Origin: Bacteroidota bacterium
GTDB lineage: Bacteria; Bacteroidota; Bacteroidia; Bacteroidales; UBA5342
Assembly: GCA_003249935.1 (NCBI GenBank)
Contig: QKHT01000039.1
Span: forward strand, 1 to 32,015
DNA: 32,015 nucleotides
Direction: 5' to 3'
The position numbers and the translations under genes are program-made. A model generated the notes under the pieces. It searched no databases. It was not told the origin of the DNA and was given only the letters and a program-made list of their open reading frames with translations. How positions within the stretch are numbered: position 1 is the stretch's first letter; each line of letters begins with the position of its first letter. Positions 1 through 18,867 of the stretch are shown here, piece by piece.

Positions 1-684
1 GTGGGATGGGATTGGGCCAAAGGGCTTGAAAAACTTGGCGGTCGCGCGGTCAATGTGGTTACCAACGGTTTCGATCCGGCCGACGGCGATGCAACAGAGG
101 CAGTGGTCGGTTCTAACTTCACAATTACCCATGCCGGAGCAATTAATGCCGACCGAAATCATACAGAATTCTGGAAAGCAATACGCGAATTAATTGACGA
201 AAATACGGGGTTTTCCCAAGCGGTAAACATAAAGTTAGTGGGTAAAAACGATGTCGCTGTATTACGCGATATTGAAGAATATGAATTAAACAATTTCGTC
301 GAACGCATTGCCTATCTGCCTCATAACGAGGTGATGCCATATCTCAAAAGTGCTTCTGTACTTTATTTGCCCGTAAACAACACGCCCAATGCCAAGGGTA
401 TTCTTACCGGAAAGGTTTTTGAGTATTTACTGGCCAAACGACCTGTATTTGCTATCGGACCTATCGACGGCGACTTAGCCAAAGTAATTGAACACACGAG
501 CGGAGGCAAAATTTGTAATTTTGGCGATACAAATGCTATAAAACAAACGTTGTTGTGGTATTTTGAACAATGGAAATCGGGTGCAGAGATGTGTACAAGC
601 ACAAATATTGATAATTTTTCGCGCAAGAATTTAACACAGGATATTGCTGGTTTACTGCAATCCATCGTCGATAAAAACCAATGA
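1..684 (+). CDS. Glycosyltransferase family 4 protein, C-terminal part (5' end outside window)
   Basis: This is the C-terminal ~227 residues of a GT-B fold glycosyltransferase that adds a sugar from a nucleotide donor to a growing surface glycan at the cytoplasmic face of the membrane. The reading frame is open from the first base, and the visible sequence starts mid-protein: residues 22-25 are the NGFD motif that ends the N-terminal domain in GT4 enzymes. The C-terminal Rossmann half follows, with residues ITHAGAI (about 42-48), a KLVG strand (57-60), and the donor-binding region KGILTGKVFEYLLAKRPV (about 132-149), where a Glu after K-x-F is typical. The GTG at base 1 is an internal codon, not a start. 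Its TGA stop overlaps the ATG of the next epimerase gene (ATGA), so the two are translationally coupled. The sugar and acceptor cannot be told from sequence. Confidence 0.85.
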   Translation: MGWDWAKGLEKLGGRAVNVVTNGFDPADGDATEAVVGSNFTITHAGAINADRNHTEFWKAIRELIDENTGFSQAVNIKLVGKNDVAVLRDIEEYELNNFVERIAYLPHNEVMPYLKSASVLYLPVNNTPNAKGILTGKVFEYLLAKRPVFAIGPIDGDLAKVIEHTSGGKICNFGDTNAIKQTLLWYFEQWKSGAEMCTSTNIDNFSRKNLTQDIAGLLQSIVDKNQ

Positions 685-1736
685 AGATACTAACAGTGGT
701 TGGGGCCAGACCCCAATTTGTAAAGGCAGCCGTTGTGAGCCTGGCACTTAAAAAAGCCGGTATAAACGAAGTTCTGGTGCATACCGGCCAGCACTTTGAT
801 GCTAATATGTCGGCTGTTTTTTTCGAAGAACTTGGTATCCCCGAACCAAAATACAATCTTGATATTCATGGTTCGAGCCATGCAGTGATGACGGGCGAAA
901 TGATGATGGCACTCGAAAAATGCATGATGATTGAGCAACCCGATTGGGTATTGGTTTTTGGTGATACCAATTCGACATTGGCAGCGGCCGTTACAGCCAA
1001 AAAGCTGAATATCAGCCTGGCACATGTAGAGGCCGGATTGCGTTCGTTCAATGACCATATGCCCGAAGAGATTAATCGTATGGTAACCGACCGATTGAGT
1101 GATTTACTCTTTTGCCCTACCGAAACGGCTGTTACAAATCTTAGAAAAGAAGGTGTGGTTGATTCGAAAATTATGCTTTCGGGCGATGTAATGTACGATG
1201 CCGCCCTAATTTTTGGATGTGATTCCAATTGTAATGATTCCGGTATTTGGGCTGAACCGTATGTTTTGGCCACGGTTCATCGGCAGGAAAGTACCAACGA
1301 TGCCGAAGTGCTGAGCCAAATATTTAAGGCATTAAATGTTATTAATCAACAAATTAAAGTCATCATGCCGGTTCATCCCCGTACCCGGGCATTAATCAGT
1401 AAGTACAATATTTCCACTGCAATTTCAATGATTGAACCGGTTGGGTACGTTGAAATGCTAAAGCTCCTCAATGGGTGTAATCTTGTGCTTACCGATAGTG
1501 GCGGCTTGCAAAAAGAGGCATATTTTTGTAAGAAACCTTGTGTAACGCTTCGTAACGAAACCGAATGGGTTGAGTTGGTTTCCAATGGCGTAAATATACT
1601 GGCCGGAACCGAAAAAAACAACATTCTGAATGCTTTTTCGGCTGCTCAAAACATGCACAAAGGGTTCAACCAAAAATTTTATGGTATCGGAAACGCATCT
1701 GAACTTATTGCCCAACGATTTTTAGATATGCTTTAA
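681..1736 (+). CDS. wecB: UDP-N-acetylglucosamine 2-epimerase (non-hydrolysing), WbpI-like subtype
   Basis: The 351-residue protein is a non-hydrolysing UDP-HexNAc 2-epimerase, which interconverts UDP-GlcNAc-type and UDP-ManNAc-type sugars in the cytoplasm for glycan synthesis. The N-terminus has the family signature VGARPQFVKAA (7-17) and HTGQH (34-38). Catalytic residues by comparison with E. coli WecB are D95 (FGDTNS), E117 (HVEAGLRS), E129/E130 (MPEEINR) and H200 (TVHR). The stretch ETAVTNL...GDVMYDA (148-173) resembles epimerases acting on diacetamido-uronic acid sugars (WbpI type) more than classical WecB; this substrate reading is an inference. The start overlaps the upstream glycosyltransferase stop by four bases. 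The 3' end overlaps the convergent GT2 gene by 15 bases. A second, distinct paralogue lies at 10299. Confidence 0.9.
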   Translation: MKILTVVGARPQFVKAAVVSLALKKAGINEVLVHTGQHFDANMSAVFFEELGIPEPKYNLDIHGSSHAVMTGEMMMALEKCMMIEQPDWVLVFGDTNSTLAAAVTAKKLNISLAHVEAGLRSFNDHMPEEINRMVTDRLSDLLFCPTETAVTNLRKEGVVDSKIMLSGDVMYDAALIFGCDSNCNDSGIWAEPYVLATVHRQESTNDAEVLSQIFKALNVINQQIKVIMPVHPRTRALISKYNISTAISMIEPVGYVEMLKLLNGCNLVLTDSGGLQKEAYFCKKPCVTLRNETEWVELVSNGVNILAGTEKNNILNAFSAAQNMHKGFNQKFYGIGNASELIAQRFLDML

Positions 1737-2519
1737 TAGCTGTTTTCCCCGATGCAGAATGTTTAGATATTCAACGACAGAACAAATGTTTTTGTATCTG
1801 GTATATTTGGTAATTGCAAAATAAATATACCACACCCAATGTAATGTTGGGTAAAACCTTGCGAAAACCAATCCAGCCACTTCGATATTGGCCGGGTTTA
1901 TGGTTCTTCCCGACGATTCGGCAGGGTGAACCACCGTAAAAACCGGTTCAAACCAAAGTTTTAATCCTTTTTTTGCACAATCGCCCGTAAAAAACGATTC
2001 CTCGCCCCCGGGATGGCTGGTGCCCAAACCCAAATTTTCATTGAAGAGGATGTGTTGCTCATGAATCATTTTTAACTTAAACGACATTTCTATCGACGAA
2101 ATAGCCATGAGCTGTAAAGGCGAACTGAAATAACCGGGTGTTGAACCGTAATTTGAATAGGGCTGACCGTTGGGTTGCTGAATTTTTGTGATAATGAGTG
2201 CTGTGTCTGGTTTTTTAGTATGAACCGTTTTGATATTCTCGATGGCATCGGGCAAATAAACCACATCGTCGTCGGCAATGACGCAAATTTGGGCGGTTGC
2301 AGCACGAATGGCCATGTTGCGACTTTTTGATAAGCCACGGTCTTTGATGCTTATGATTTGGATGTTAGGATAAGGGTTCTGAATATCAACCGGTTCGATA
2401 TTAAAACACTGATTAATAATAATCGCGTGAATGTTGTGCATGTCGAAGTGCTGAAACATTCGCTTAGCAAAATTCAAGTCGCTGCGATTGGTGGTTGATA
2501 TTAAAAATTGAACCAGCAT
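1722..2519 (-). CDS. Glycosyltransferase family 2
   Basis: This 265-residue GT-A fold glycosyltransferase should transfer a sugar to a lipid-linked glycan intermediate on the inner leaflet. It starts with a beta-strand and STTNR (8-12), continues through RGLSKSRNMAIRAA (61-74), the nucleotide-sugar contact region, and has the metal-binding DDD at 83-85 inside ICVIADDDVVYL. A C-terminal HPAESSGR segment (about 204-211) sits where many such enzymes carry catalytic or acceptor residues. An aromatic-rich stretch (LHWVWYIYFAI, about 231-241) may form a membrane-associated helix. It points opposite to the preceding epimerase and overlaps its 3' end by 15 bases. It diverges from the T9SS cargo gene with a spacer of only 57 bases. 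Donor and acceptor are unknown. Confidence 0.85.
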   Translation of the reverse strand: MLVQFLISTTNRSDLNFAKRMFQHFDMHNIHAIIINQCFNIEPVDIQNPYPNIQIISIKDRGLSKSRNMAIRAATAQICVIADDDVVYLPDAIENIKTVHTKKPDTALIITKIQQPNGQPYSNYGSTPGYFSSPLQLMAISSIEMSFKLKMIHEQHILFNENLGLGTSHPGGEESFFTGDCAKKGLKLWFEPVFTVVHPAESSGRTINPANIEVAGLVFARFYPTLHWVWYIYFAITKYTRYKNICSVVEYLNILHRGKQLLKHI

Positions 2520-2541
2520 TTTTTTTGTGTAAAAATAGATA

Positions 2542-2549
2542 TATATTTG
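2542..2549 (+). promoter_or_regulatory. Candidate -7 promoter box of the T9SS cargo gene
   Basis: TATATTTG matches the Bacteroidota -7 consensus TAnnTTTG exactly. A T-run with TTG (2521-2527) lies upstream, but only 14 bases away, shorter than the usual ~20. The implied transcript start near 2556 would give a 5' leader of about 20 bases to the ATG at 2577. This also supports choosing 2577 over the upstream in-frame ATG at 2508, which would lie before the promoter and inside the opposite gene. Confidence 0.45.
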
Positions 2550-2576
2550 AATATTAATTCTAAATATATATCGTAT

Positions 2577-3749
2577 ATGAACTTAAAAAATGTTATGCGT
2601 TGGTTGGCAATTTTTGTCTTCACCTTGAATGTTAATGCCCAGTGGAAATCTTCTATGAATGGGATCTATGTAGATTCAACAAAAGTTGGTGTGGGGATGA
2701 TCCCAAATTCCCGGTTTTCAGTAGAAGAACATGATTCGTTAAATTATGGTGGATCGAGTCTGATCTCTACTTTCGCCCGGAGATTTTTAGCCAATCGTGT
2801 ATCTTTCAATATCTACGGTTTTCCATCATCGTCACAGGCAAAATCCCATTTGAATAATTCCGTAATGTTGTTTACAGGAGACGCACGTGATATGGTATTT
2901 ACGGCAAACCGTCAAGATGGGCGAATACGATTTTTTACTCAGGATTGGCAGGATGCAAACCACGAACGAATGGTGATTAATAGTGACGGTAAAGTAGGTA
3001 TTGGTGGTACGCCCAATTCGCCATTTATGGTAAAAGAGAAAAATCCTGATTACAATTATAATGTAAATACTATTATTGCGTCGTTTAACCGCGAATACAA
3101 TGGTTCAAATGTAGCATTGAATATTTTTGGATATCCAAAATCGAATTTAAACTATCCTCATTTAAATGGAGCCATTACAATGTATACTGGTGGTGATGCA
3201 AAAGATATGGTTTTGATTTCTAACCGCCCGGACGGACGGATTAGATTTTTTACGCAGGATTGGCAGAAACCAGAGCATGAAAGAATGGTTATCGACTCAA
3301 TTGGACGGGTGGGTATTGGTGTTACAAAACCCGAGGCTGCTCTACAAGTAGCACAAGGGGATGTTTATATTAGTGATATAAAAAGTGGTGTCGTTATGCG
3401 TTCGCCCGATGGACGTAAGTGGCGTGGTACACTTGATAACGAAGGTAATCTCAAATTTAAGTTAGTTGACCAAGTCGCCGATTCTATCAATAGTGGGATT
3501 ATTGATATTAATGCGGTTGGATTTAATGTTAAACCCGGAACTACTAACGGTAATTATATTGCAGATTTTGAAGTTGATGGTAATTATCTTGTTCAGATTT
3601 TTGATATTTTAGGGAAAGAAATATTTAGCTTAAATGTTACTGGTCGTAGTTGTGGATTTTCATTGAACAGTTTTCCTTCCGGTGTTTATATTGTAAGTGT
3701 AATTAAAAATCAGAATCAGGGAATAGGAACTGTAAAGATTGTGAAATAA
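2577..3749 (+). CDS. Secreted repeat protein with type IX secretion (type A) sorting domain
   Basis: A 390-residue exported surface protein of unknown role. The chosen start gives a signal peptide (residues 1 to about 22: MNLKNVMRW, a hydrophobic core, then NVNAQ). The earlier ATG at 2508 would put 23 polar residues in front and overlap the divergent gene. Two tandem repeats of about 104 residues follow (about 36-138 and 139-243). Each contains FNIYGFP or LNIFGYP, a MLFTGDARDM-like segment and GRIRFFTQDWQ...HERMVI, and each unit begins with KVG(V/I)G. A third KVGIG-like start (RVGIG, 244-248) leads into EAALQVAQGDVYI. The GIG...P...L-V pattern is common in Bacteroidota surface proteins and tail-fibre-like domains. 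Residues ~312-390 are a T9SS type A sorting domain: IFDILGKEIF (341-350), LNSFPSGVYIVSV (363-375) and final VKIVK. It is flanked by glycan genes and ends in a strong terminator. Confidence 0.85.
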   Translation: MNLKNVMRWLAIFVFTLNVNAQWKSSMNGIYVDSTKVGVGMIPNSRFSVEEHDSLNYGGSSLISTFARRFLANRVSFNIYGFPSSSQAKSHLNNSVMLFTGDARDMVFTANRQDGRIRFFTQDWQDANHERMVINSDGKVGIGGTPNSPFMVKEKNPDYNYNVNTIIASFNREYNGSNVALNIFGYPKSNLNYPHLNGAITMYTGGDAKDMVLISNRPDGRIRFFTQDWQKPEHERMVIDSIGRVGIGVTKPEAALQVAQGDVYISDIKSGVVMRSPDGRKWRGTLDNEGNLKFKLVDQVADSINSGIIDINAVGFNVKPGTTNGNYIADFEVDGNYLVQIFDILGKEIFSLNVTGRSCGFSLNSFPSGVYIVSVIKNQNQGIGTVKIVK

Positions 3750-3771
3750 TACAATAAGTCGAATTTTTGTT

Positions 3772-3802
3772 GGTGCTCTGTTTTTAGAGCACCTTTTTTT
3801 TT
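3772..3802 (+). terminator. Rho-independent terminator of the T9SS cargo gene
   Basis: The perfect 8-bp stem GGTGCTCT / AGAGCACC with loop GTTTTT is followed by nine T residues. It begins 22 bases after the cargo stop codon. The stop codon and last residues (RKKKVL) of the convergent GT2 gene are read from the same bases, so the hairpin doubles as coding sequence on the minus strand. No T-run follows on the minus side, so it should stop plus-strand transcription only. Confidence 0.9.
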
Positions 3803-4728
3803 CGCAATTGAAAGTAGATCTTAATAAGCCATTTAATTGAATGATGTAACGTTCCCATGTAAAATATTGAATATTTTATCGAAGGGTTTTGTATTTCGCA
3901 ACGTAAAATGTGATACTTATTTGCAATCGATTTTTCGTTGAGCCAAAAAGCGTGAAATACAATCCGGTCGAAAAGATAACATTTCCCCGAATCAGACATA
4001 TATCCGTTATGTTTTTGATAAAACCGGATATAACCGTCGAGTTTTTTACGGTGGTTTGTGCTAATCCTTTCAGCAGAATGGATTATAGCGTTATGCAAAA
4101 CTTTAGGAACCAGTGTAATATGAAATTTTAATGCAATTCGGGCAAACAAATCAATATCCTGACAGGAAGGCATTCTTTCATCAAAACCTCCTGTTTCACT
4201 AAACGCTTGTTTCGAAATTAAGGGGTTTGGAACGGCAATAGATCCTCTGCTAATATCGGTAAATGCACCTGGACAAAAGCCTTCGCCAAAACTGAATTTT
4301 GTTTCGAAATGAACATGTCCATCACCGGCATCTCTGGCTTCCTGATAGCAATAAATCAGGCCGGTTTGGTTGGTTGATGCCATCAATTGTAATTCCAATT
4401 TCTCCGGCATCCAAACGTCGTCGTCATCAAAAAAAGCAATAAAAGTGCCCTTGGCCACTTTGGCTCCCGCATTGCGCGATGCACAAGCACCAATGTTGGT
4501 GTCATTTGCAAAATATTTTATTTTGGTGGGAAGTAAATTTGAAATGGCCTGAAAAGTTTCTGTTTGATGCTGCGTCCCATTCCCGTTATCGTCAATTACA
4601 ATTATTTCAATGTTTTTGTATGATTGATTCATTACATTTTCAATGGCTTTACGTATAAAATGAGGCCTGTTGAATGTCGTAATAATCACTGAAATAAGTA
4701 CATCTGAATCGAATTTGTCTGAATCCAT
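3784..4728 (-). CDS. Glycosyltransferase family 2
   Basis: A 314-residue GT-A glycosyltransferase. The N-terminal nucleotide-binding domain reads SVIITTFNRPHFIRKAIENV (13-32), then QSYKNIEIIVIDD (35-47), GACASRNAGA (80-89) and the metal-binding acidic cluster FFDDDDVW (99-106), all in the standard GT2 order. A later GGFDERMPSCQDIDLFARIA segment (about 173-192) matches the acceptor/catalytic ED-like motif with QD. The C-terminus is basic and contains hydrophobic stretches (for example IKWLIKIYFQL). The start ATG lies at the beginning of a 333-base divergent spacer. Its 3' end runs into the terminator hairpin of the convergent cargo gene. The substrate is unknown; context suggests building a surface polysaccharide or the glycan part of LPS. 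Confidence 0.87.
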   Translation of the reverse strand: MDSDKFDSDVLISVIITTFNRPHFIRKAIENVMNQSYKNIEIIVIDDNGNGTQHQTETFQAISNLLPTKIKYFANDTNIGACASRNAGAKVAKGTFIAFFDDDDVWMPEKLELQLMASTNQTGLIYCYQEARDAGDGHVHFETKFSFGEGFCPGAFTDISRGSIAVPNPLISKQAFSETGGFDERMPSCQDIDLFARIALKFHITLVPKVLHNAIIHSAERISTNHRKKLDGYIRFYQKHNGYMSDSGKCYLFDRIVFHAFWLNEKSIANKYHILRCEIQNPSIKYSIFYMGTLHHSIKWLIKIYFQLRKKKVL

Positions 4729-5061
4729 TAGATTTATACCGATAAAATAAAAGTGAAAATATCTCGTGATAAAATTAGTTATATCTTTTGTTTGAACAAA
4801 ATAAAGTATTGTTTAAGCTGCCTATATTGTGCCGCTGGCAATTGGTGTTAGGAACTTTATTTTAACTTTGCATTTGGTTGAAGTGCATTTGTTTTAATGA
4901 ATTATGATTTAATCTCGGAGATCGGTTGTTTGTATTTATGTGATTTGGTTACAAATCATTGAGTAAATAGCGGTTTTTATCATATTTTATCTTGATTTTA
5001 TGATGGCTTGTAATTCGACCTTTCAATCATTTAAAATGTATATGCGATTAATTTTGAAAAT
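4729..5061. other. AT-rich divergent intergenic region
   Basis: This 333-base spacer separates a leftward GT2 gene from a rightward methyltransferase gene and carries no convincing reading frame or RNA gene. It is strongly AT-rich. A TAATTTTG box (5049-5056) matches the TAnnTTTG -7 consensus but lies only five bases before the methyltransferase ATG. No good partner -33 element was found, and no clear -7 box was seen for the leftward gene. It presumably holds both promoters. Confidence 0.5.
5049..5056 (+). promoter_or_regulatory. Candidate -7 box implying a leaderless methyltransferase mRNA
   Basis: TAATTTTG fits TAnnTTTG exactly. If used, transcription would begin at or within a base or two of the ATG at 5062, giving a leaderless message. 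No TTTG was found about 20 bases upstream, so a chance match in AT-rich DNA is a real alternative. Confidence 0.25.
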
Positions 5062-6030
5062 ATGAGGCGTGATCTCTATCAAAAAAGTGAATCAAAAAAA
5101 TTCTATGAAATTCGTTATGAGAAAGGCTATATGGACGAATGGCCAATAGATAAGAAGCAAAGAGTTTTTGAGATTATAAGAGAATTAGAGTTACCTGAAA
5201 GTGGTAACGCATTGGATTTTGGATGCGGGAATGGCGTATTTACTGAGGTGCTTAGGCAAGCACTCCCAAAATGGAAAATATTTGGATGCGACATTAGCGA
5301 AAATGCTATTAACAATGCAATGAACAGGTATCCCGAATGCTCATTTTTTGTGTCAGATAGTAGTAAGAATGCTGAAATCAAGTTTGATTTTTTGTTTTCT
5401 CATCATGTTTTGGAACATGTATTTGACATAAAAAAGGTAATTGATGAAATAAATGATTTAATGTTGCCGAGTTCATCTGTACTTTTAATTTTCCCATGTG
5501 GAAATGAAGGAAGTTTTGAACATAAAGTGTGTAAAATGCGTACGGATGGAATAAATAAAGAGATGGAGAACCGGTTTTTCTTTGAAGATGAAGGACATGT
5601 AAGGCGACTTACAACCGAACAAACTAATAAATTGATGAGTGAATATCATTATAAGCTGAAAACTGAATTTTATAGTAATCAGTTCGATGGAGCCATTAAA
5701 TGGATTACTCAATCTTCACTTCCTTTTATACTCGATTTTACAAATCCGAAAAAGGCTATTGACAAAAAAGCCTACTGGTATTTGCAATTACTTCGTGTTA
5801 AATTAGTTATACTTTTTTTGTTGCAATTACCATCAATAATATATAATAGAATCAATATTGTAAGAAAAAAGAAACTGAAACATTATTTCATTTGGATCAC
5901 TGTCCTGATACCACAGTTGATCTCTTATCCTATTTATGCTTTCCTGAATTATAAAGCTAATAAAGAATGGAAAAATAAGAAGAAGCATAAAAATGGAAGT
6001 GCAATGCATTTGTTGTACAATAGGGTGTAA
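5062..6030 (+). CDS. SAM-dependent methyltransferase with C-terminal membrane segments
   Basis: A 322-residue class I methyltransferase. The SAM-binding motif I is LDFGCGNGVF (51-60), the acidic residue ending strand 2 is in FGCDIS (74-79), and post-motif HHVLEHV (114-120) matches the Methyltransf_11/23 type, so it should move a methyl group from SAM to a small molecule or glycan. After the catalytic domain there are two hydrophobic stretches, around residues 243-262 (LVILFLLQLPSIIYN) and 275-297 (YFIWITVLIPQLIS), followed by a very basic tail (KEWKNKKKHK). This suggests tethering to the inner membrane, perhaps to reach a lipid-linked glycan. It stands alone on the plus strand between spacers of 333 and 290 bases. 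The real methyl acceptor is unknown. Confidence 0.8.
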   Translation: MRRDLYQKSESKKFYEIRYEKGYMDEWPIDKKQRVFEIIRELELPESGNALDFGCGNGVFTEVLRQALPKWKIFGCDISENAINNAMNRYPECSFFVSDSSKNAEIKFDFLFSHHVLEHVFDIKKVIDEINDLMLPSSSVLLIFPCGNEGSFEHKVCKMRTDGINKEMENRFFFEDEGHVRRLTTEQTNKLMSEYHYKLKTEFYSNQFDGAIKWITQSSLPFILDFTNPKKAIDKKAYWYLQLLRVKLVILFLLQLPSIIYNRINIVRKKKLKHYFIWITVLIPQLISYPIYAFLNYKANKEWKNKKKHKNGSAMHLLYNRV

Positions 6031-6159
6031 TTTAAGTTGAGCCATTTTAGAGGCTGCTTTTTTTAATTGTTATCCCTAATATGGTTTGTTAGTTAACTAT
6101 GGTAAACAGAGGGTAAATTGGTAAAAAGATGTGTTTGTATTGCGATAAACATTCAATTT

Positions 6160-6223
6160 TTTGCAAGGAATTACAGGTTGTTACAAGAAATAAAATAGCA
6201 ATTTGGGTATAAAACCTTGCAAA
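6160..6223. repeat. 9-bp inverted repeat upstream of fucosyltransferase-like gene
   Basis: TTTGCAAGG (6160-6168) and its exact reverse complement CCTTGCAAA (6215-6223) are separated by 46 bases within the 290-base spacer 6031-6320. There is no gene here. The arms are too far apart for a terminator and there is no T-run, so a paired protein-binding site is one possibility and coincidence in AT-rich DNA another. The rest of the spacer shows only a weak AGCC/GGCT hairpin before a T-run (about 6043-6064) that could end the methyltransferase message. Confidence 0.35.
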
Positions 6224-6320
6224 TTAAGTTAGAGTATAATCGTAAAAATTATGACCTTGAATATTAAATAAATATATCGTCATAATTAATTGCCTATTTT
6301 TACGTCAATGAATTTGCATT

Positions 6321-7250
6321 ATGATTGTTTTGAGAGATAAACCGGGACAACTTGGTAATAGATTGTGGTCGTTGTTGCCATTTTTATTACTAAGCGAAAA
6401 AAGAAAAATATGTCTTTTCGCACCTTACCATCTAAGTGGTTATTCCGATTACTTCCAAAGTCGGGATACAAAGTCCTTTATTTACCTTTGGGTTGGATTT
6501 CCTCATCTTCACAGATTATTAAGCAAATGCTTTCGTATTTTAGAATTATTACTCAGAAAATTGAATCAATATGGGTTCTCTCTTTTTTGTATTTGGGTCG
6601 AACCGGAGAAACACAACATAGAGAAGGTTATGCAATTGTCGTGTCGGAAAGTTGTTTTTGTAAATTCGTGGGATTATGTTTTTGATATACCTGAATCTGT
6701 ATTGACAGGGGGAGTGGCATTGATTCATGAAAAATTGTACCCTAAAAGCGAGGTAGTAAAAAAGGTAACGCCAGTTTTACTTCAGATACCACATGGAAAA
6801 GTAATAGTGGGTGTTCACATTCGATTGTCGGATTATAAAAACTATCGGGGTGGAATTTATTATTACACAATATCTGTGTATTATCGAAAGATGGAAAGTT
6901 TGGCGGTTCAGTTTAAACAAAAAAATAAGGAAGTTGTCTTTGTAATCTGTTCGGATGAATCATTTGAAAAAAGTGTGTTCGAAGGTCTGGAAACGGTGTC
7001 AATTAGCAATACTACTGCAATAGACGATATGTATGCATTATCGAAATGTCATTTTATTATGGGTGCGCCAAGTTCATTTTCGTGTTGGGCATCGTATATG
7101 GGCAAGGTGCCATTGCGTTTTATTTATAATGAAGCCGACGATGTTAAAATCGACGAATTCAGCCGAATTGTTGCATTTATGAAATTTGAAAATGGTGTTG
7201 TACATATACCTGGGCAGTTGGAATATGTCAGTAATAATAGGTCGGAATAA
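6321..7250 (+). CDS. Fucosyltransferase-like (GT11/GT-B type) glycosyltransferase
   Basis: A 309-residue protein with the layout of alpha-1,2-fucosyltransferase-like enzymes, which transfer fucose from GDP-fucose. An N-terminal glycine-rich GQLGNRLW (9-16) stands in for the family GGLGNQMF motif. The donor-phosphate motif H-x-R appears as VGVHIRLSDY (163-172; H167, R169), where classical GT11 has HxRRGDY. The C-terminal ALSKCHFIMGAPSSFSCWA (239-257) corresponds to the S-x-S(T)FSWW region. Because the second Arg and Gly of the HxRRGDY motif are replaced (L, S), the donor may not be fucose; the family call is moderate and the sugar is uncertain. Its TAA stop shares one base with the ATG of the flippase gene (TAATG), so the two are coupled. 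Confidence 0.65.
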   Translation: MIVLRDKPGQLGNRLWSLLPFLLLSEKRKICLFAPYHLSGYSDYFQSRDTKSFIYLWVGFPHLHRLLSKCFRILELLLRKLNQYGFSLFCIWVEPEKHNIEKVMQLSCRKVVFVNSWDYVFDIPESVLTGGVALIHEKLYPKSEVVKKVTPVLLQIPHGKVIVGVHIRLSDYKNYRGGIYYYTISVYYRKMESLAVQFKQKNKEVVFVICSDESFEKSVFEGLETVSISNTTAIDDMYALSKCHFIMGAPSSFSCWASYMGKVPLRFIYNEADDVKIDEFSRIVAFMKFENGVVHIPGQLEYVSNNRSE

Positions 7251-8620
7251 TGTATAAAATATCAGATATAAAGCTTATAGTCAATAAGATATTTAACGAT
7301 AACAATGGCTTACTACGAAATTCCGGGTGGTTGTTAATTGAAAAGATTACAAATTTTACATTCGGATTTTTTGTTGGTCTTGTTGTAATGCGTTATCTCG
7401 GTCCGGCACGATTCGGAGAACTTAGTTATGCTATTTCTATTACCGGTATCCTTTCGTTTTTTGCAGTTTTAGGCCTTGATAGCATTGTGGTGCGCGAATT
7501 GGTTAAATTTCCGGAAAAGACGTACACCATTTTAGGAACTACTTTTGCGCTTAAACTAATAGGTTCGGTTGCATTGGTCATCTCTGCCGTAGTTGGCGAA
7601 TACTTTCTGGGCGGTGATGGTCGAAGTATAAAATTCATTTTGGTTATTGGTTTGGGTTATGTTTTCGATGCATTCCGGGTCGTCGATTTTTATTTCCAAG
7701 CACAAAAATCACTTAAATATCCGGCAATGGCTAGAGTTTTTGGAGATATTTTGTTTTCGATCTTCAGAATTTATCTTGTTTATATTAATGCCGAAATCCA
7801 ATTTTTTGTGTTTTTACAAGGTGCATATATGGCTTTTTATGGGTTATTCTTTTATCTTATAAATCGAAAACATGGGATCTCAATCAGGCTTTGGCGTTAT
7901 TCAATAGTCGAGGCTAAAATTTTATTAACACATTCCATGCCATTGATTTTCTCAAGTATAATGGTTTTGTTATATGCACGTATCGATCAGGTAATGCTCA
8001 AAAAAATTGTTGGCATAGAAACAGTTGGTACCTATGCTGCGGTGCTCAAACTTGTAGAGATGTTTTATTTGGTTCCAACTATCATTACTACTTCTATCTT
8101 TCCAACGCTAATAGAGCTTCGCGAAAAAAATTATAAACATTACATGAAGCGGCTTCAGAATCTTCATAGTTTGTTTTTTATAATTTTGTTTGGCGTAAGT
8201 GTTGTTTTTACGATTTTTGCCGGTACAATTATTGATTTGTGTTATGGTCAGGCTTATAGCGATGGCGTAGCAGTGTTGCGAATAATGATATGGAACACGG
8301 TATTTCTTGGTTTCTTTAGTGCCAGCGGATGTTGGTATATTGCCGAAAATCTTCAAAAAATTGCATTTTGGCGCAATTCTCTGGGTGGAGTAGCAAATAT
8401 AATTCTCAATCTTTTACTTATTCCTCCGCTTGGAGCAGTTGGTTCAGCCATTGCATCGCTTATTTCCCGGTTTTTGTCATCTTTTGTATTCGAGGCATTT
8501 TCGACAAAAACACGTGATGTTTTTTATATGAAGTTACGTGCTTTATGGTTGCCATACTCAGTAAAGAAAGCCACTGAAATGTTGTTTCGCGAAAAAAAAC
8601 GAACGGGGATCAGCGGTTAA
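7250..8620 (+). CDS. wzx: Wzx-type oligosaccharide flippase
   Basis: A 456-residue polytopic membrane protein of the MOP/PST superfamily (Polysacc_synt family), expected to flip undecaprenyl-linked oligosaccharide units from the cytoplasmic to the periplasmic leaflet. It has the expected length and 12-helix-like spacing of hydrophobic segments. The N-terminal SGWLLIEKITNFTFGFFVGL (about 25-44), followed by VMRYLGPARFGELSYAIS, is a standard signature (RYLGP..FG). ARIDQVMLKKIVG (243-255) lies at the mid-protein position where these flippases have a conserved D-x-x-M/L. It overlaps the upstream glycosyltransferase by one base and the convergent FkbM gene by 11 bases. No polymerase (Wzy) or chain-length protein was recognised in the window. 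Confidence 0.9.
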   Translation: MYKISDIKLIVNKIFNDNNGLLRNSGWLLIEKITNFTFGFFVGLVVMRYLGPARFGELSYAISITGILSFFAVLGLDSIVVRELVKFPEKTYTILGTTFALKLIGSVALVISAVVGEYFLGGDGRSIKFILVIGLGYVFDAFRVVDFYFQAQKSLKYPAMARVFGDILFSIFRIYLVYINAEIQFFVFLQGAYMAFYGLFFYLINRKHGISIRLWRYSIVEAKILLTHSMPLIFSSIMVLLYARIDQVMLKKIVGIETVGTYAAVLKLVEMFYLVPTIITTSIFPTLIELREKNYKHYMKRLQNLHSLFFIILFGVSVVFTIFAGTIIDLCYGQAYSDGVAVLRIMIWNTVFLGFFSASGCWYIAENLQKIAFWRNSLGGVANIILNLLLIPPLGAVGSAIASLISRFLSSFVFEAFSTKTRDVFYMKLRALWLPYSVKKATEMLFREKKRTGISG

Positions 8621-9401
8621 TACCAAGTTTGGATTTGAGATACTTAATTAGTTTTGAGAATTTGAAAATGTAACGGTTTGTGATTTCGCGAATTGGCAAT
8701 AATACCAACGAACAATTGCCAAATTTTTCTTTATGTAACGATTTGCGAACCCAAAACTGATCGCCTGATATTGGGCCGGTTGTGTCGATTGTTTTCACAA
8801 ATCCCGCATTTTTCATGGTTTTTTCTACTTCATTCTTAAGTGGTTGGTCTTTATAAAGTGCCACGCATTCAACTTCTAACCAAATACATTTCAACTGTTT
8901 CAGTATTTGGTTTGCCCCTTGCAATACCATTAGTTCAGCACCCTGTACATCCATGTGAATAAAGTCCACATTTGTGATGTTCATTGTCTCGCAAAATGTA
9001 TCTATTGTTGTGGTTTGAACCTCAATCTTTTGTTCAAATTTTAACCATGGGTGTGTATTTAATGTTTCTCCGGGCGGCAACATCGAAGAACTTTTATTGC
9101 CAAAATCGTTGCTTCCATCAGCCGATTCCGGATTACCTGAGGAAACAAAGAATTCTGTGGTACCTACCGAGTTGCTCATGCATAACAATACCGGCGTAAT
9201 ATTGCTTAGTCCGCTTTGTTTAATATTTTTTTCTATAAGTTCGAAATTTGAAGGTAATGGTTCAAAGCAAAAAACCTGAGCATGGGGGTATAGTTTCCCA
9301 TAAATTACCGAATCGGTGCCATCGCAGGCACCAATATCGAAAATAATTCCACTCGATTTTTTTTCTAAATATTTGCCCAATTCAGTTAAATGGTTGTTCA
9401 T
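8610..9401 (-). CDS. FkbM-family methyltransferase
   Basis: A 263-residue SAM-dependent O-methyltransferase of the FkbM family, which typically methylates sugar hydroxyls of glycans or polyketides. Motif I is IIFDIGACDGTDS (19-31) followed by VFCFEPLPSNFELIEKNI (43-60), the hallmark FEP motif. FIHMDVQGAELMVLQGA (about 142-158) carries the family D-x-x-G-x-E signature. It is convergent with the flippase gene, overlapping its end by 11 bases, and starts a 120-base spacer shared with the divergent methyltransferase at 9522. The C-terminal tail is basic (SKLIKYLKSKLGINR). Methylation of the surface glycan is inferred from position. Confidence 0.88.
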   Translation of the reverse strand: MNNHLTELGKYLEKKSSGIIFDIGACDGTDSVIYGKLYPHAQVFCFEPLPSNFELIEKNIKQSGLSNITPVLLCMSNSVGTTEFFVSSGNPESADGSNDFGNKSSSMLPPGETLNTHPWLKFEQKIEVQTTTIDTFCETMNITNVDFIHMDVQGAELMVLQGANQILKQLKCIWLEVECVALYKDQPLKNEVEKTMKNAGFVKTIDTTGPISGDQFWVRKSLHKEKFGNCSLVLLPIREITNRYIFKFSKLIKYLKSKLGINR

Positions 9402-9479
9402 TATTCTTGTATTTTTATTTTCTATGTCATTTTATTTGCGTTTGCGAATTTAATTAAATATAGAAACCAATTCAATAAT

Positions 9480-9487
9480 TATCTTTG
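9480..9487 (+). promoter_or_regulatory. Candidate -7 promoter box for the 9522 methyltransferase
   Basis: TATCTTTG matches the Bacteroidota -7 consensus TAnnTTTG. The predicted start near 9494 gives a leader of roughly 28 bases. The nearest TTTG (9441-9444) is 35 bases upstream, too far for a standard -33 element, so the call rests on the -7 box alone. Confidence 0.5.
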
Positions 9488-9521
9488 CCTTTTGTAAATT
9501 AATGACTTTCTCACTGTATAT

Positions 9522-10286
9522 ATGAATCATAATATTCAGTTTCACGATAAAAATCTTTGGTCAAAGTACGATAAAAACAATTTTATTGCCCAAAAAACAG
9601 AGTTTCTCAAGAAGGTAATCCCCCCCGACGTAAAATCTGTAATAGATATTGGTTGTGGAAATGGATTGATTACGAGAGAATTAAAAAATATTTTTCCTGT
9701 TGTAGTTGGTTGCGACATTTCTGCCGAGGCATTGTCTTTTATCGAAGGTGAAACCATTTGTAGTTCGTGTGATTCGATTCCCGTTTCGGACCAAAGCTTC
9801 GATTTGGTATTTTCGAGCGAAATGATTGAACACCTCGACGACACGGTACTCAAAGGTGCTATAAGTGAAATGAGCAGAATATCGCGAAAGTATATTCTTA
9901 TTACTGTTCCAAATAGCGAAGTAATGGCTGGAGCCGAGGTAAAATGCAATATTTGCGGGTGTGTTTTCCATCAGAGTGGTCACTTACAGCGGTTTACTGA
10001 AAAACGATTAAATGCATTGTTTTCTAATGATTTCTCCATCTTGATGTCCCAACCGTTTGGTGCACATGTGAGTAGAAGATTCGGTAGCCTGATTAAGCTT
10101 AGGCAACGACTTTTTGGTCAGTATGATGCCGCAGGAGAGTTTTCGGTATGCCCATCGTGCGGAAATCGGAATTTCAAGTGGCCCGTTTCTAACATTGGTT
10201 CGAAAGTAATTAATTTTATCAATACTTATTTTACGGGTAGAAAGAATTATTGGTATTTGCTCTTGCTCGAACGAAAAAGAAATTAG
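9522..10286 (+). CDS. SAM-dependent methyltransferase with probable zinc ribbon
   Basis: A 254-residue class I methyltransferase. Motif I is VIDIGCGNGL (40-49), the strand-2 acidic residue is in VGCDIS (62-67), and the Methyltransf_11 region reads FDLVFSSEMIEHLDD (93-107). Unusually, two Cys pairs follow: C142/C145 (KCNICGC, with H150 and H154 in VFHQSGH) and C210/C213 (CPSCG). Their spacing suggests one zinc-binding ribbon formed from two separate loops, inserted in or after the catalytic fold. The target is unknown; in this setting a sugar or lipid-linked glycan is likely. It is followed after 12 bases by the second WecB gene, so they probably form an operon from the promoter at 9480. Confidence 0.82.
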   Translation: MNHNIQFHDKNLWSKYDKNNFIAQKTEFLKKVIPPDVKSVIDIGCGNGLITRELKNIFPVVVGCDISAEALSFIEGETICSSCDSIPVSDQSFDLVFSSEMIEHLDDTVLKGAISEMSRISRKYILITVPNSEVMAGAEVKCNICGCVFHQSGHLQRFTEKRLNALFSNDFSILMSQPFGAHVSRRFGSLIKLRQRLFGQYDAAGEFSVCPSCGNRNFKWPVSNIGSKVINFINTYFTGRKNYWYLLLLERKRN

Positions 10287-10298
10287 GAAATTACGTTA

Positions 10299-11456
10299 AT
10301 GAAAATACTCAGCATAGTAGGGGCACGGCCCAATTTTATGAAAATAGCACCGTTTATTCGGGCTATTTCTGACTGGAATAGCGTACATGACAGTAAAATT
10401 GAGCATATTTTAGTCCATACCGGACAGCATTACGATGACCGGATGAGTGCGGCTTTCTTTCAAGCATTGGATATTCCCGCTGCCGATATTAATTTGGGTA
10501 TTGGTTCGGGTTCGCATGCCGAACAAGTTGGGCGTACGATGATCGCTTTTGAGCAGGTTCTTTTGAGCCAACAACCCGATTGGGTGGTGGTGGTTGGCGA
10601 TGTAAATGCCACGCTGGCCTGTTCGGTTACGGCAAAAAAAATGCACATTAAAGTTTGTCACATCGAGGCGGGACTTCGTTCGGGTGATCTGACAATGCCC
10701 GAAGAAATTAATCGTTTGGTAACCGATCGTATCGCCGACTTATTGCTTGCTCCTGATGCCATCTCGGTTCAAAACTTAAAAAATGAAGGTGTTTGCGACA
10801 AAGCCATTTGTTTATGTGGCAATATAATGATCGATACCCTCGATGCTCAAAGAGATAAAGCTATGTCGCTGACATTAAGTGAAATTTTCGGCAATAATGC
10901 GATTAATAATGTTGAGGTACAAAAAGTTGGTAGTTTTTCCGAAACTTTTGGCGTTGTAACGCTTCACAGGCCGTCGAATGTCGATGATTTTGAAATACTA
11001 TCCCGCTTGGTAAACTTTTTTATTAAGGAAGTGTCGCATGAATTACCTTTAGTCTGGCCGGTTCATCCCAGAACCGTGAAACAAATGGCCGAAACCGGAT
11101 TGTTACAGAACCTGATGGATTGCCCCTCGGTGTTGTTACTTCAGCCGTTAGGATACCATCAAATGTTACGGTTGAACCTGGGGGCAGCCTTGTTTTTTAC
11201 CGATAGCGGTGGTTTACAGGAAGAATGTACCGTAATTGGTACACCTTGCATTACCTTGCGAAATAATACCGAACGTCCTGTTACACTGAAATCTCACGGT
11301 GGAGTATCGTTGTTGGTTGGAAATTCAATTGAAACAATCCGATTAGCTTATGCCCAAGCAAAACAGGCTGGTAAAATGCCGGTTCGACCCGAAATGTGGG
11401 ACGGGCAAGCGGCCAAACGTATGGTTGAGGCCATTATGTCCTTTGTTGCAAGTTGA
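10299..11456 (+). CDS. wecB: UDP-N-acetylglucosamine 2-epimerase (non-hydrolysing)
   Basis: A 385-residue non-hydrolysing UDP-GlcNAc 2-epimerase that makes UDP-ManNAc. The N-terminus is SIVGARPNFMKIAP (5-18), with HTGQHYDDRMS (40-50). By alignment with E. coli WecB the catalytic residues are D101 (VGDVNA), E123 (HIEAGLRS), E135/E136 (MPEEINR) and H223 (TLHRPSN). GGLQEECTVIGTPCITLRNNTERP (around 306-329) is the usual UDP-binding C-terminal signature. The segment APDAISVQNL...GNIMIDTL places it in the ordinary WecB branch, unlike the paralogue at 681, so the two probably act on different sugar nucleotides. It lies 12 bases after the zinc-ribbon methyltransferase gene. Confidence 0.93.
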   Translation: MKILSIVGARPNFMKIAPFIRAISDWNSVHDSKIEHILVHTGQHYDDRMSAAFFQALDIPAADINLGIGSGSHAEQVGRTMIAFEQVLLSQQPDWVVVVGDVNATLACSVTAKKMHIKVCHIEAGLRSGDLTMPEEINRLVTDRIADLLLAPDAISVQNLKNEGVCDKAICLCGNIMIDTLDAQRDKAMSLTLSEIFGNNAINNVEVQKVGSFSETFGVVTLHRPSNVDDFEILSRLVNFFIKEVSHELPLVWPVHPRTVKQMAETGLLQNLMDCPSVLLLQPLGYHQMLRLNLGAALFFTDSGGLQEECTVIGTPCITLRNNTERPVTLKSHGGVSLLVGNSIETIRLAYAQAKQAGKMPVRPEMWDGQAAKRMVEAIMSFVAS

Positions 11457-11486
11457 TACTGACTTTAAAAAGCATATTTTTTTCTC

Positions 11487-11494
11487 TATATTTG
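11487..11494 (+). promoter_or_regulatory. Candidate -7 promoter box for the 11512 methyltransferase
   Basis: TATATTTG is an exact TAnnTTTG match in the 55-base gap after wecB. The predicted start near 11501 leaves a leader of only about 11 bases. No clear -33 TTTG was found at the standard spacing. Confidence 0.45.
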
Positions 11495-11511
11495 GGCAAA
11501 TTTTTAGATAA

Positions 11512-12288
11512 ATGCAAGAACGTCATACCGACAAAAAAAGATATTTCAACGAACAGGTTTATACTTCCGGAACTTTCTGTATTCCGTTTATATCGGCTAT
11601 TAAACCGGTGGTGGCCGGGTTAGATGTGCTTGAAGTCGGCTGTGGCGAAGGTGGAAACATGGTGCCGTTTATCGAAAAAGGGTGCAAGGTAATTGGTGTG
11701 GATATTAGCTGCGATAAAATTGAGAATGGCAAAAAATTTCTTGCTCAACATCCTCAGAAAGATAATATAGTGCTTGTTTGCCACGATATTTATACTTGGA
11801 AAACCGACAAACTGTTCGATATTATTTACTTGCGCGATGTGCTCGAACATTTGCCCGGACAAGAGAATTTTTTACTGTATATTAAAAAGTTTCTGAAGCC
11901 GGGTGGTTGTCTGTTTTTGGGCTTTCCTCCATGGCAAAACCCATTTGGTGGGCATCATCAGATTTGCGAAAATAAATACCTTGCTACCATGCCCTGGATT
12001 CATCTTTTACCCGAAAAGTGGTATTATGGATTACTCAAAAAGGGTGGAGAGACCAATCATAAAATTGAGGTTTTACGCGAGGTGCGTGAGACCCGAATTA
12101 CCATTGGCCAGTTTTTGGGTATGGCTAAAAGACAAAATTATACCATTCGCAAGTCGATGTACTTCTTTTTTAATCCAAATTATAAGGTAAAATTTGGCTT
12201 GCCGGTTTGGCGTCAGCCTTTAAGTTTTATCCCGGTTTTACGCAATTTTATTGTAACCACTTGTTATTACGTTATTTCTCCAAAATAG
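11512..12288 (+). CDS. Class I SAM-dependent methyltransferase
   Basis: A 258-residue methyltransferase of the Methyltransf_11/25 type. Motif I is VLEVGCGEGGN (39-49), strand 2 ends in VIGVDIS (60-66), and IIYLRDVLEHLPG (about 104-116) is the post-motif region. KPGGCLFLGFPPWQNPFGGH (about 130-149) follows, where the FPP...NPFGGH segment recurs in glycan-cluster methyltransferases of Bacteroidota. The C-terminus is hydrophobic and basic (LSFIPVLRNFIVTTCYYVI), possibly membrane-associated. It ends five bases before the YfhO gene, so the two are probably co-transcribed. The substrate is unknown. Confidence 0.85.
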   Translation: MQERHTDKKRYFNEQVYTSGTFCIPFISAIKPVVAGLDVLEVGCGEGGNMVPFIEKGCKVIGVDISCDKIENGKKFLAQHPQKDNIVLVCHDIYTWKTDKLFDIIYLRDVLEHLPGQENFLLYIKKFLKPGGCLFLGFPPWQNPFGGHHQICENKYLATMPWIHLLPEKWYYGLLKKGGETNHKIEVLREVRETRITIGQFLGMAKRQNYTIRKSMYFFFNPNYKVKFGLPVWRQPLSFIPVLRNFIVTTCYYVISPK

Positions 12289-15989: not shown

Positions 15990-16841
15990 ATGTCATATAT
16001 TCAAGCCATTATTATAGCCATTGTTGAAGGAATTACAGAATTTTTGCCTATATCTTCTACCGGCCACATGATAATTACCCAAAAACTTTTGGGTATGGAA
16101 ATTACCCCATTTGTTAAAGCTTTTACTGTAAATATTCAATTTGGAGCTATTCTTTCTGTTATTGTGCTTTACTGGCGAAAATTTTTCATCATCAATTCAA
16201 AAGCCGAACTAACATATCCTTCGCCAAATGTGTTTCTTAGAAAAATTCAACGGTTCATTCTTACTTTCGAATTTTATTTCAAGCTGTTAGTCGCATTTAT
16301 ACCGGCGGCAATCATTGGATTTTTACTCAGTGATTTTATTGATTCGATGCTGGAAAGCGTGGCGGTAGTCGCAGTTATGCTGGTTATTGGGGGTCTCATT
16401 CTTATTTTTGTAGATAAGTGGTTTACAAATCCATCAAAAAAACAAAATGTTTCCTACCCATCAGCTCTCAAAATAGGATTATTTCAGTGTATTGCGATGA
16501 TTCCCGGAGTTTCGCGTTCAGCAGCCACAATTATTGGTGGGATGACACAACGATTGGATCGTAAAAATGCGGCTGAATTTTCGTTTTTTCTAGCCGTTCC
16601 TACCATGTTTGCTGCCTCGGCATTTAAATTACTCCAGAATTACAAAGATATTTCAGTGGAAAACCTTGATGTTTTGATTGTCGGGAATATCGTGGCATTT
16701 ATTGTTGCTCTTATTGCCATAAAATCGTTCATTACATTTTTAACCAAATACGGGTTTAAGGTATTCGGATACTATCGTATTGTGGTTGGCGTAATTATTC
16801 TTATTATGCTGGCGTTTGGTTATGATTTAGCAATTGTATAA
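15990..16841 (+). CDS. uppP: Undecaprenyl-diphosphate phosphatase
   Basis: A 283-residue BacA/UppP-type phosphatase that removes a phosphate from undecaprenyl pyrophosphate, recycling the lipid carrier for peptidoglycan and surface glycans, and can give bacitracin resistance. Motif 1, [15 protein letters not shown] (13-27), holds the conserved (E/Q)xxxE. Motif 2, [15 protein letters not shown] (about 170-184), has the PGxSRS signature with its essential Ser and Arg. The remainder is a chain of hydrophobic helices at standard length. Its stop codon shares one base with the truB start (TAATG). Confidence 0.96.
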
Positions 16842-17530
16842 TGGATTTTGAAAAAGGGGAAATTTTGCTGTTCGATAAGCCCTACACATGGACATCTTTC
16901 GATTTGGTAAACAAAGTAAAACACATCATTCGGTATTCTACCGGAAAAAAAATAAAAGTTGGTCATGCCGGTACGCTCGATCCGCTTGCCACCGGACTAT
17001 TGGTGGTTTGCACGGGCAGGTTTACCAAACTTATTGATTCGATACAGGCTGGTACCAAAGCATATATTGCCAAAATTAAACTTGGAAGTACAACGCCATC
17101 ATTTGATCTCGAAACAGAAATTGATGCGGTATTTCCAACGGATCATGTTACAATTGAACTTGTTAACCATATATTGCCACAATTTTTGGGCTCAATTATG
17201 CAGATCCCTCCGGCACATTCGGCCATCCGGATTAATGGAAAACGTGCATACGAAATGGCCAGAAAAGGAGTAGAAGTTGATTTAAAAGCCCGTGAACTTG
17301 TAATCGACCAAATAGAGGTGCTGAAATTGGAAAATAATGAACTCACATTAAAAGTGGTTTGTAGCAAAGGAACTTATATTCGATCGTTAGCACGCGATAT
17401 TGGTATCGCACTTTGTTCCGGTGCACATTTGGTTGGGTTACAACGCACACAAATAGGTGAATATAAACTCGAAAATGCATTTTCAATAGAAAATTTCGAG
17501 AAATCTTATCGTCCATTGAAACAAAGTTAA
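16841..17530 (+). CDS. truB: tRNA pseudouridine(55) synthase
   Basis: A 229-residue TruB that converts U55 in the T-loop of tRNAs to pseudouridine. The catalytic motif GHAGTLDPLATGLLVV (41-56) has the nucleophile D47. KAYIAKIKLG (68-77) and GTYIRSLARDIG (176-187) are further family signatures, and IPPAHSAIRINGKRAYEMAR (about 125-144) is the conserved substrate region. It is shorter than E. coli TruB, lacking the extended C-terminal PUA region, as usual in Bacteroidota. It is coupled to uppP by a one-base overlap. Confidence 0.96.
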   Translation: MDFEKGEILLFDKPYTWTSFDLVNKVKHIIRYSTGKKIKVGHAGTLDPLATGLLVVCTGRFTKLIDSIQAGTKAYIAKIKLGSTTPSFDLETEIDAVFPTDHVTIELVNHILPQFLGSIMQIPPAHSAIRINGKRAYEMARKGVEVDLKARELVIDQIEVLKLENNELTLKVVCSKGTYIRSLARDIGIALCSGAHLVGLQRTQIGEYKLENAFSIENFEKSYRPLKQS

Positions 17531-17657: not shown

Positions 17658-18707
17658 ATGAAACTCTCAAAGTTTAAATTCAAATTGCCGGAAGCACTTA
17701 TTGCGCAGCATCCGACACCACATCGCGATGAATCGCGTTTATTGGTATTGAATAGAAAGACTGGTACCATTGAACATCGGATTTTTAAAGATATTATCGA
17801 CTATTTTTCCGATAAAGATGTGTTTATTTTTAATGATACCAAGGTGTTTCCTGCCCGACTCTATGGAAATAAGGAAAAAACCGGAGCGAAAATCGAAGTT
17901 TTTTTGCTTCGTGAGTTGAACCACGATCAAAAATTGTGGGATGTATTGGTTGATCCGGCCCGCAAAATTAGAATTGGAAACAAGCTTTACTTTGGTGAAG
18001 ATGACAGTGTGGTAGCCGAAGTAATAGACAATACAACCTCACGCGGCCGAACGTTGAGATTCCTTTACGATGGCGACCACGATGAATTTAAAAAAACACT
18101 TTATAGTCTTGGCGAAACCCCACTGCCAAGAACTATTACACGCAGTGTTGAACCAGAAGATGCCGAAAGATATCAAACCATTTTTGCCCGGAATGAAGGT
18201 GCTGTTGTGGCTCCGACTGCCGGATTGCATTTTAGTCGCGAATTACTAAAACGACTGGAAATTAAAGGTTGCGAATTTTCTTACGTTACCTTGCATGCAG
18301 GTTTGGGAAATTTCCGTGAAATTGATGTAGAAGATCTTACAAAGCATAAAATGGATTCGGAACAGATGCTCATTACCGATGCTGCCTGTAATATTGTAAA
18401 TGCTGCCCGCGAAAGACGCAATAATATATGCGCTGTGGGTACCACTGTAATGCGTGCTGTCGAAAGCTCGGTAAGTACTGATGGTTTTATTAAACCCTAC
18501 GATGGCTGGACCAATAAATTTATCTTTCCGCCATACGATTTTACAGTGGCCAACCGCATGATTACTAATTTTCATATGCCACTTTCATCACTGCTTATGA
18601 TGGAGGCAGCTTTTGGTGGATTCGATTTGGTTATGGATGCCTACGATGTAGCCGTTAAGGAAAAATACCGTTTTGGCACCTATGGCGATGCCATGATGAT
18701 TATTTAA
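17658..18707 (+). CDS. queA: S-adenosylmethionine:tRNA ribosyltransferase-isomerase
   Basis: A 349-residue QueA, which transfers and isomerises the ribosyl part of SAM onto 7-aminomethyl-7-deazaguanine in tRNA to form epoxyqueuosine. Signatures are [20 protein letters not shown] (10-29), [15 protein letters not shown] (56-70), the VAPTAGLHF motif (about 181-189), [14 protein letters not shown], and the C-terminal [19 protein letters not shown] (about 302-320). Length matches the family. The start is preceded by an A/G-rich AAAAAGGAT. It lies 127 bases after truB, closing the conserved ftsX-to-queA order, and ends with a strong terminator. Confidence 0.97.
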
Positions 18708-18726
18708 CAACGTGTTATTTAACAAC

Positions 18727-18758
18727 AAAAAAAGCCGGCTATACTGCCGGCTTTTTTT
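18727..18758 (+). terminator. Strong terminator after queA, potentially bidirectional
   Basis: The GC-rich stem AGCCGGC (18733-18739) / GCCGGCT (18746-18752) with loop TATACT is flanked by seven A on the left and seven T on the right. It starts about 20 bases after the queA stop. The mirrored A and T runs would let it work on either strand, but no gene approaches from the right. Confidence 0.93.
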
Positions 18759-18838
18759 GTTTGACTAAAAAAATGTTAATCTAATATTAGATGTTCTTTA
18801 ATGTTTAAATAGATGATGTTTTAATCATAAATATTTCC

Positions 18839-18846
18839 TAATCTTG
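18839..18846 (+). promoter_or_regulatory. Candidate -7 box of the two-component operon
   Basis: TAATCTTG differs from TAnnTTTG at one position. It would start transcription near 18853, about 15 bases before the chosen ATG at 18868. This also argues against a TTG start at 18844, which falls inside the box. Confidence 0.35.
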
Positions 18847-18867
18847 TACAGATTAACATATTTGATT

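Follow-up and report, generated by a model that had tools for sequence, protein, structure and literature searches.

The gene at 2577..3749 on the plus strand encodes a protein of 390 amino acids that probably forms a short, surface-anchored homotrimeric fibre resembling the MAT fibres of Bdellovibrio. The fibre would be exported and anchored by the T9SS and would probably bind glycans or reach past them. The window analysed here is the whole of contig C152 (32,015 bp), which belongs to a genome of 4.27 Mb from the order Bacteroidales.

Architecture of the gene and its product

By eye, the open reading frame begins with a signal peptide (residues 1-21; 2577..2639) that has a hydrophobic N-terminus and is followed by a predicted mature start at Q22, immediately after NVNA. 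This start agrees with the Q-rule for Bacteroidetes (PMC5837995, in excerpt). The 14 residues 22-35 are all that separates Q22 from the first cap. Alignment then delimits two units, unit 1 at residues 36-138 (2682..2990) with the initial cap KVGVG and unit 2 at residues 139-243 (2991..3305) with KVGIG. A third cap, RVGIG, starts at residue 244 and opens a neck module (residues 244-299; 3306..3473) without the two cysteines typical of its relatives. A linker (residues 300-323; 3474..3545), which to judge from its position holds a putative PorU cleavage site, leads into a T9SS type A sorting domain (residues 324-390; 3546..3746) assigned by profiles and a fold match. All of these features lie on the plus strand. 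Two further model matches to the protein were taken as chance, namely DUF3256 (18.7 bits against a cut-off of 25) and CNF1 (13.4 bits against 950).

The sequence-only reading of this DNA had described a signal peptide, two repeats of about 104 residues and a third, partial repeat start, and each of these is borne out. Units 1 and 2 are identical at 53 of 103 aligned residues, and their local alignment scores 270, as compared with a mean of 26 and a maximum of 49 for 1000 shuffles. Both contain GRIRFFTQDWQ and HERMVI, and the conserved core of the unit reads RIRFF..W....ERM.I...G.VGIG..P...L.V. Where the two units have the same residue, the codons are identical in 25 of 53 cases, which is close to the 24.0 expected from the codon usage of the locus alone, and thus the synonymous sites keep no trace of the duplication. 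By the NG86 method, dN between the units is 0.45 and dS is saturated at 2.9. These values support the earlier view that the duplication is old and that purifying selection has kept the protein sequence.

Relatives, exchangeable heads and the neck

Matches to the protein occur in 27 of 393 genomes of the same order, its own included, and none was found in the other two genomes of its family. The gene has no second copy in its own genome, where the other matches (E up to 1) cover only residues 277-390. A single-sequence scan of genome contigs for the protein found nothing; a search with a five-row alignment of the unit located four further unit-bearing loci in four other genomes (L048, L049, L050 and L051). 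Unit number differs among these relatives, with one copy in L048 and L050 and two in L049 and L051. The two units of L049 are identical to each other at 295 of 318 nucleotides and, from the unit onward, L049 shares 88.5% identity with L048 across 9.4 kb; the difference between them could reflect a gain in L049 or a loss in L048. In a tree of units, the window pair forms a group (split 99), as does the L051 pair (100), and the L049 pair is weakly placed (61, 76). Since the window and L051 pairs each form a group of their own, at least two lines gained a unit separately.

L051 differs in its composition, having a short collagen-like stretch (by eye), then two units and an Lcl C-terminal domain, with no sorting domain (CTD). 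Its upstream end lies near the contig end, where a transposase-like gene is visible by eye. Other relatives have the neck in common (consensus ..GDIYI.DI..GIIMKSPDG.CWRGT..N.G.L.F..C) and mostly the CTD too, but carry different heads, either other fibre units or YadA-type. YadA_head scores above the Pfam cut-off in four of ten proteins scanned (L025, L026, L028 and L040), and L026 and L040 have additional matches to segments of YadA, EmaA or Ata models, far below the whole-protein cut-offs. YadA heads are trimeric in solved cases. These four proteins each unite YadA head repeats, the VGIG segment and neck, and a sorting domain of T9SS type A in one chain, so that heads of the autotransporter kind are paired with another export tag. 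L032 combines collagen repeats with the neck and has no CTD. Like L033, L034 and L037, it ends exactly at the neck module (..CP) with no sorting domain. The comparison suggests that the neck module can serve as the C-terminal end of a fibre.

The two neck cysteines are an all-or-none feature. Among 42 proteins, with related genes counted separately, 40 have the core; both cysteines are present in 35 of these 40 and neither in five (the window protein, L038, L040, L042 and L046), and in none does one stand alone. Such a pattern fits a neck that is structured and contains a disulfide. A search beyond the order gave 13 distant fibre matches in 10 genomes (395 genomes, own rows excluded); by eye they have no CTD, and several have a coiled-coil-like tail end. 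One stretch, L196, contains several VGIG fibre genes (9350-10687, 16415-17353, 18255-19241 and 19247 onward).

Position in polysaccharide loci

The gene is embedded in a polysaccharide locus (1..12288) that encodes two UDP-GlcNAc 2-epimerases, two GT2 and one GT11 enzymes, a Wzx-type flippase, and FkbM and other methyltransferases. Its first ORF (1-684) has no Pfam match and resembles a GT4 of L049. Upstream, a GT2 glycosyltransferase gene identified by Pfam (1722..2519, minus strand) diverges from the cargo gene across a spacer of 57 bases with 12% GC (2520..2576), the length and arrangement given in the sequence-only reading. Within the spacer, TATATTTG at 2542-2549 resembles a Bacteroides -7 box, but matches of this kind are no more frequent in the window than chance would give. 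The promoter-like box TANNTTTG was rejected on account of its chance frequency. Downstream, an intrinsic terminator on the plus strand (3772..3802; a 9-bp stem then 9 T, z -4.7) overlaps the 3' end of a convergent gene, likewise a GT2 glycosyltransferase by Pfam (3784..4728, minus strand). Given this strong terminator, the cargo gene is probably its own transcription unit.

To quantify the association with glycan genes, matches to 15 glycan-enzyme queries were counted within 9 kb of each gene. All five unit-bearing genes, the window gene included and the close kin L048 and L049 counted separately, have at least two glycan genes in that range. Queries were at first taken from the test loci; when the count was repeated without the queries of each gene's own locus, all five still had at least one. 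For control genes with a sorting domain, picked by hand, even one glycan gene was found for only 1 of 20 in other genomes and 0 of 20 in this genome; the 15 queries miss some enzymes, and the controls may hide comparable misses. On the far side of the L051 contig there are a GT2 match, a DUF7033 match and, by eye, more glycosyltransferase-like genes.

Beyond the unit-bearing genes the association fades. Of 21 relatives with neck and sorting domain, drawn from 44 search rows that were neither own nor unit-bearing, 19 have no flagged glycan gene within 9 kb, several of their contigs being short. The two positives are both of the L081 type and sit at a nadC-yihY site. This type is the nearest other fibre type; two of its six genes, the same two as among the 21, are near glycan genes, and two of the four negatives are on cut contigs. 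Among seven more neck-class genes in the L081-type family one was flagged (L191), and the neighbourhoods of L187 and L190 show, only by eye, a GT2-like and a GtrA-like gene. As for the distant fibres, 1 of 13 is near glycan genes and 12 are elsewhere. The earlier expectation that homologues stay in glycan loci is thus upheld for the unit-bearing genes and fails for the wider relatives, which mostly lie elsewhere.

There is about an even chance that the fibre reading is right and the glycan locus is functionally unrelated, with variable surface genes merely sharing insertion sites. Three of the four other unit-bearing genes (L048, L049 and L050) share the nadC-yihY site, so the link may be positional. 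Five fibre loci occupy this site; the fibre gene adjoins yihY in L048, L049, L071 and L081, and in L050 one gene of 791 amino acids intervenes. The same site has glycan genes and no fibre in L142, L147 and L153, with the site recognised in L142 from nadC and a search fragment of yihY and in L147 from yihY only. The location of four of the six L081-type genes and of nearly all distant fibres away from glycan genes points the same way. Against this reading, the window gene and L051 are in glycan loci with no nadC-yihY in view, and glycan neighbours accompany five of five unit-bearing genes versus 1 of 40 controls. The proposal of the sequence-only reading that the protein is a partner of the glycan made here therefore keeps its support from the unit-bearing genes in polysaccharide loci and loses ground to the shared site and the scattered wider relatives. 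The glycan link holds for the few known unit-bearing genes, but it may be positional. In L071 and L081 (genomes G302 and G365), the fibre gene is followed by a Wzx-type flippase and by candidate genes for nonulosonic acid synthesis, assigned by eye to the NeuB, NeuC and NeuA types.

Homology to trimeric fibres

Several comparisons relate the units to trimeric fibres. Among phage proteins, the window protein matches two PHROGs tail-fibre families (4.9e-8 and 1.1e-6). Tail-fibre matches were likewise obtained for two of the three unit-bearing relatives scanned, L049 and L051 (1e-15 to 1e-14), and for L081 (1.5e-5); the third, L050, had no PHROGs tail-fibre match. Among solved structures, the single 390-residue protein matches Bd2133 (8ond) at 9.1e-8, with the best stretch at residues 128-299. 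A profile from an eight-row alignment of the unit, searched against the PDB, matches Bd2133 at 2e-18 and then a second MAT, 8oml, at 8e-12. The best-aligned part of the unit is residues ~79-121, which ends in VGIG..P...L.V; good alignment with solved fibres is confined to the last ~45 residues, and the profile found no clear solved relative in the PDB for the first ~75. VGIG segments recur three times in Bd2133, with ends at chain positions 37, 151 and 223. Capping-loop motifs of trimeric beta-helices have been described by Caulton and colleagues, whose paper gives the consensus in a figure only (PMC10769870, in excerpt), and by its position the VGIG segment would correspond to this motif.

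Structure prediction was less informative for the fibre part, which is poor in both AlphaFold2 models (mean pLDDT 50.5 for the whole protein and 54.3 for one unit). The low values may reflect a chain that must trimerise in order to fold. In a Foldseek search of 350,542 PDB chains, the low-confidence unit model, a check that the sequence-only reading had proposed, nevertheless has Bd2133 as its top match (probability 0.99, E 3e-3), with the next other protein at E 1.6; Foldseek also uses sequence letters, and this match is therefore not independent of the profile match. Apart from matches the size of the CTD, the full-length model returned noise.

A non-fibrous protein, such as a two-domain binding protein exported as a monomeric beta-rich T9SS cargo, with only a short VGIG loop in common with fibres, is an unlikely reading of these data. 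It would account for monomer models that show neither a confident fold nor a trimer and for the first ~75 residues of the unit that are without a clear solved relative by sequence. It sits poorly with a single-protein match to Bd2133 that spans a whole unit, with the repetition of VGIG segments in Bd2133 itself, and with the occurrence of the same neck after YadA heads or collagen in relatives.

Sorting domain and proposed export

The type A sorting domain named in the sequence-only reading is confirmed by NCBIfam TIGR04183, which scores 27.9 bits against a cut-off of 23. Pfam PF18962 falls below its cut-off by hmmscan (24.8 versus 27) and reaches it only 'with its neighbours in the frame'. 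The model is most confident at residues 321-390, with block means of 63-86 pLDDT, and residues ~311-390 match the translocon-bound CTDs of RemA and NucA (8gl6, TM 0.76 by target; 8glk, 0.74). The genome holds 141 sorting-domain matches and two adjacent full-length PorU sortase genes (L157 and L158; G000:C20:186766-193936) that score 1129 and 1105 bits against a cut-off of 420. The earlier concern that the genome might have no T9SS genes is thereby answered for the sortase and the cargo, and the idea of a fibre-like T9SS cargo is supported jointly by these genes and the homology to MATs and tail fibres. The PorU of Porphyromonas gingivalis cleaves type A cargo and attaches it to A-LPS (PMC10202324, in excerpt), and a 2026 report describes cargo tethered to LPS bearing O-polysaccharide through a pentasaccharide linker (PMC13086638, in excerpt). 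By analogy, PorU cutting and LPS attachment may apply to the window protein too.

It is improbable that the gene is a decaying paralogue that has lost its export. Such decay is hinted at by a weak CTD, the lowest in TIGR04183 score of ten scored (27.9 versus 32.9-57.4), and by the missing PNP-type motif and both missing neck cysteines. Set against these features, the frame is intact, selection between the units is purifying (dN 0.45 with saturated dS), the CTD is predicted with the expected fold, and four relatives likewise are without both cysteines. A prophage or satellite fibre gene captured recently from a phage is more improbable still and was rejected: in its favour are a moron-like terminator of its own and matches to a tail-fibre PHROG and to marine phages at 28-30% identity, but a Pfam scan found no phage family among 30 window proteins, IMG/VR gave no whole-unit relative and a single partial match (29% over residues 62-120), T9SS tags are present in relatives, and the GC content of the gene (37.3%) equals that of the locus (37.6%).

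Proposed mechanism and comparison with known systems

For the preferred reading, a MAT-like fibre exported by the T9SS, a sequence of steps can be proposed. Each chain would pass the inner membrane by Sec, with removal of the signal peptide exposing Q22, and would cross the outer membrane via the T9SS using its C-terminal type A domain. PorU would then cut the chain and join it to a lipopolysaccharide. Three chains would wind into a shaft like that of a phage tail fibre, in which two beta-helical units are stacked and VGIG capping loops close them off. The neck module would form the cell-proximal end of the shaft, and the N-terminal units would face outward as a binding surface, with the reach of the fibre set by the number of units. 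The gene would be part of a variable surface-structure locus, and its fibre would probably bind surface glycans or reach past them.

Judged by sequence, the protein is close to known fibres by its units and to known cargo by its tag. With the MAT fibres of Bdellovibrio (Bd2133, Bd1334 and others; PMC10769870, in excerpt) it has VGIG capping segments, stacked units and exchangeable domains in common. As described there, MATs are 626 to ~1,000 amino acids long, with a conserved beta-rich N-terminal domain of ~130 amino acids thought to lie at the cell surface and with C-terminal tips. In contrast, the window protein has 390 residues and a T9SS tag at the C-terminus, and it lacks the N-terminal domain, with residues 22-35 alone preceding the first cap. 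Beta-helical phage tail fibres (PHROG 9942 and 18345; the T5 L-shaped fibre) match by profile across unit 2 and the neck, but the window protein has a Sec signal and a T9SS tag, no phage family nearby, and no match to the C-terminal S74 chaperone/protease (Pfam E up to 0.01; NCBIfam E up to 1). The trimeric autotransporters YadA, EmaA and Ata follow the same plan of an N-terminal head and a C-terminal surface anchor, and relatives of the window protein carry YadA heads. A YadA head is absent from the window protein, and in place of the trimeric beta-barrel, for which it has no Pfam or NCBIfam match, it has the sorting domain. It is therefore outside the MAT family as defined, having no N-terminal domain, and outside the trimeric autotransporters, having no barrel. 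From T9SS type A cargo such as RemA, which has a CTD alike by profile and fold, it differs in a cargo part that is a tail-fibre-like repeat. The Legionella adhesin Lcl is linked to the window-type unit through L051, which joins such a unit to a collagen-like stretch and the Lcl C-terminal domain; the window protein has neither.

To our knowledge, the T9SS cargo described so far consists of enzymes and adhesins that are each exported as one folded chain. Among the top matches in the open-licence literature, no description was found of a T9SS-exported cargo that is trimeric or tail-fibre-like. If the proposal is true, the window protein would represent a new kind of T9SS cargo, a phage-tail-like adhesive fibre inside a sugar-coat gene cluster. 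A threefold fibre with three sorting tags would raise the questions of whether the trimer forms before, during or after passage and whether PorU acts on each chain. More tentatively, and with less than even confidence, these proteins may be the Bacteroidota counterpart of the trimeric autotransporters. They would be mosaic homotrimers in which a common disulfide-stapled neck carries a tail-fibre, YadA-roll or other head. The T9SS would export each of the three chains and PorU would fix each to an LPS, leaving every fibre seated on three lipopolysaccharides. The unit-bearing branch would travel with polysaccharide loci whose chains must be bound or outreached, unit number tuning the length. With such a finding, the range of phage-like mosaic adhesins would widen from a predator to a large environmental phylum, and a single locus would serve as a simple model for variation in the head, the length of the fibre and the surface glycan.
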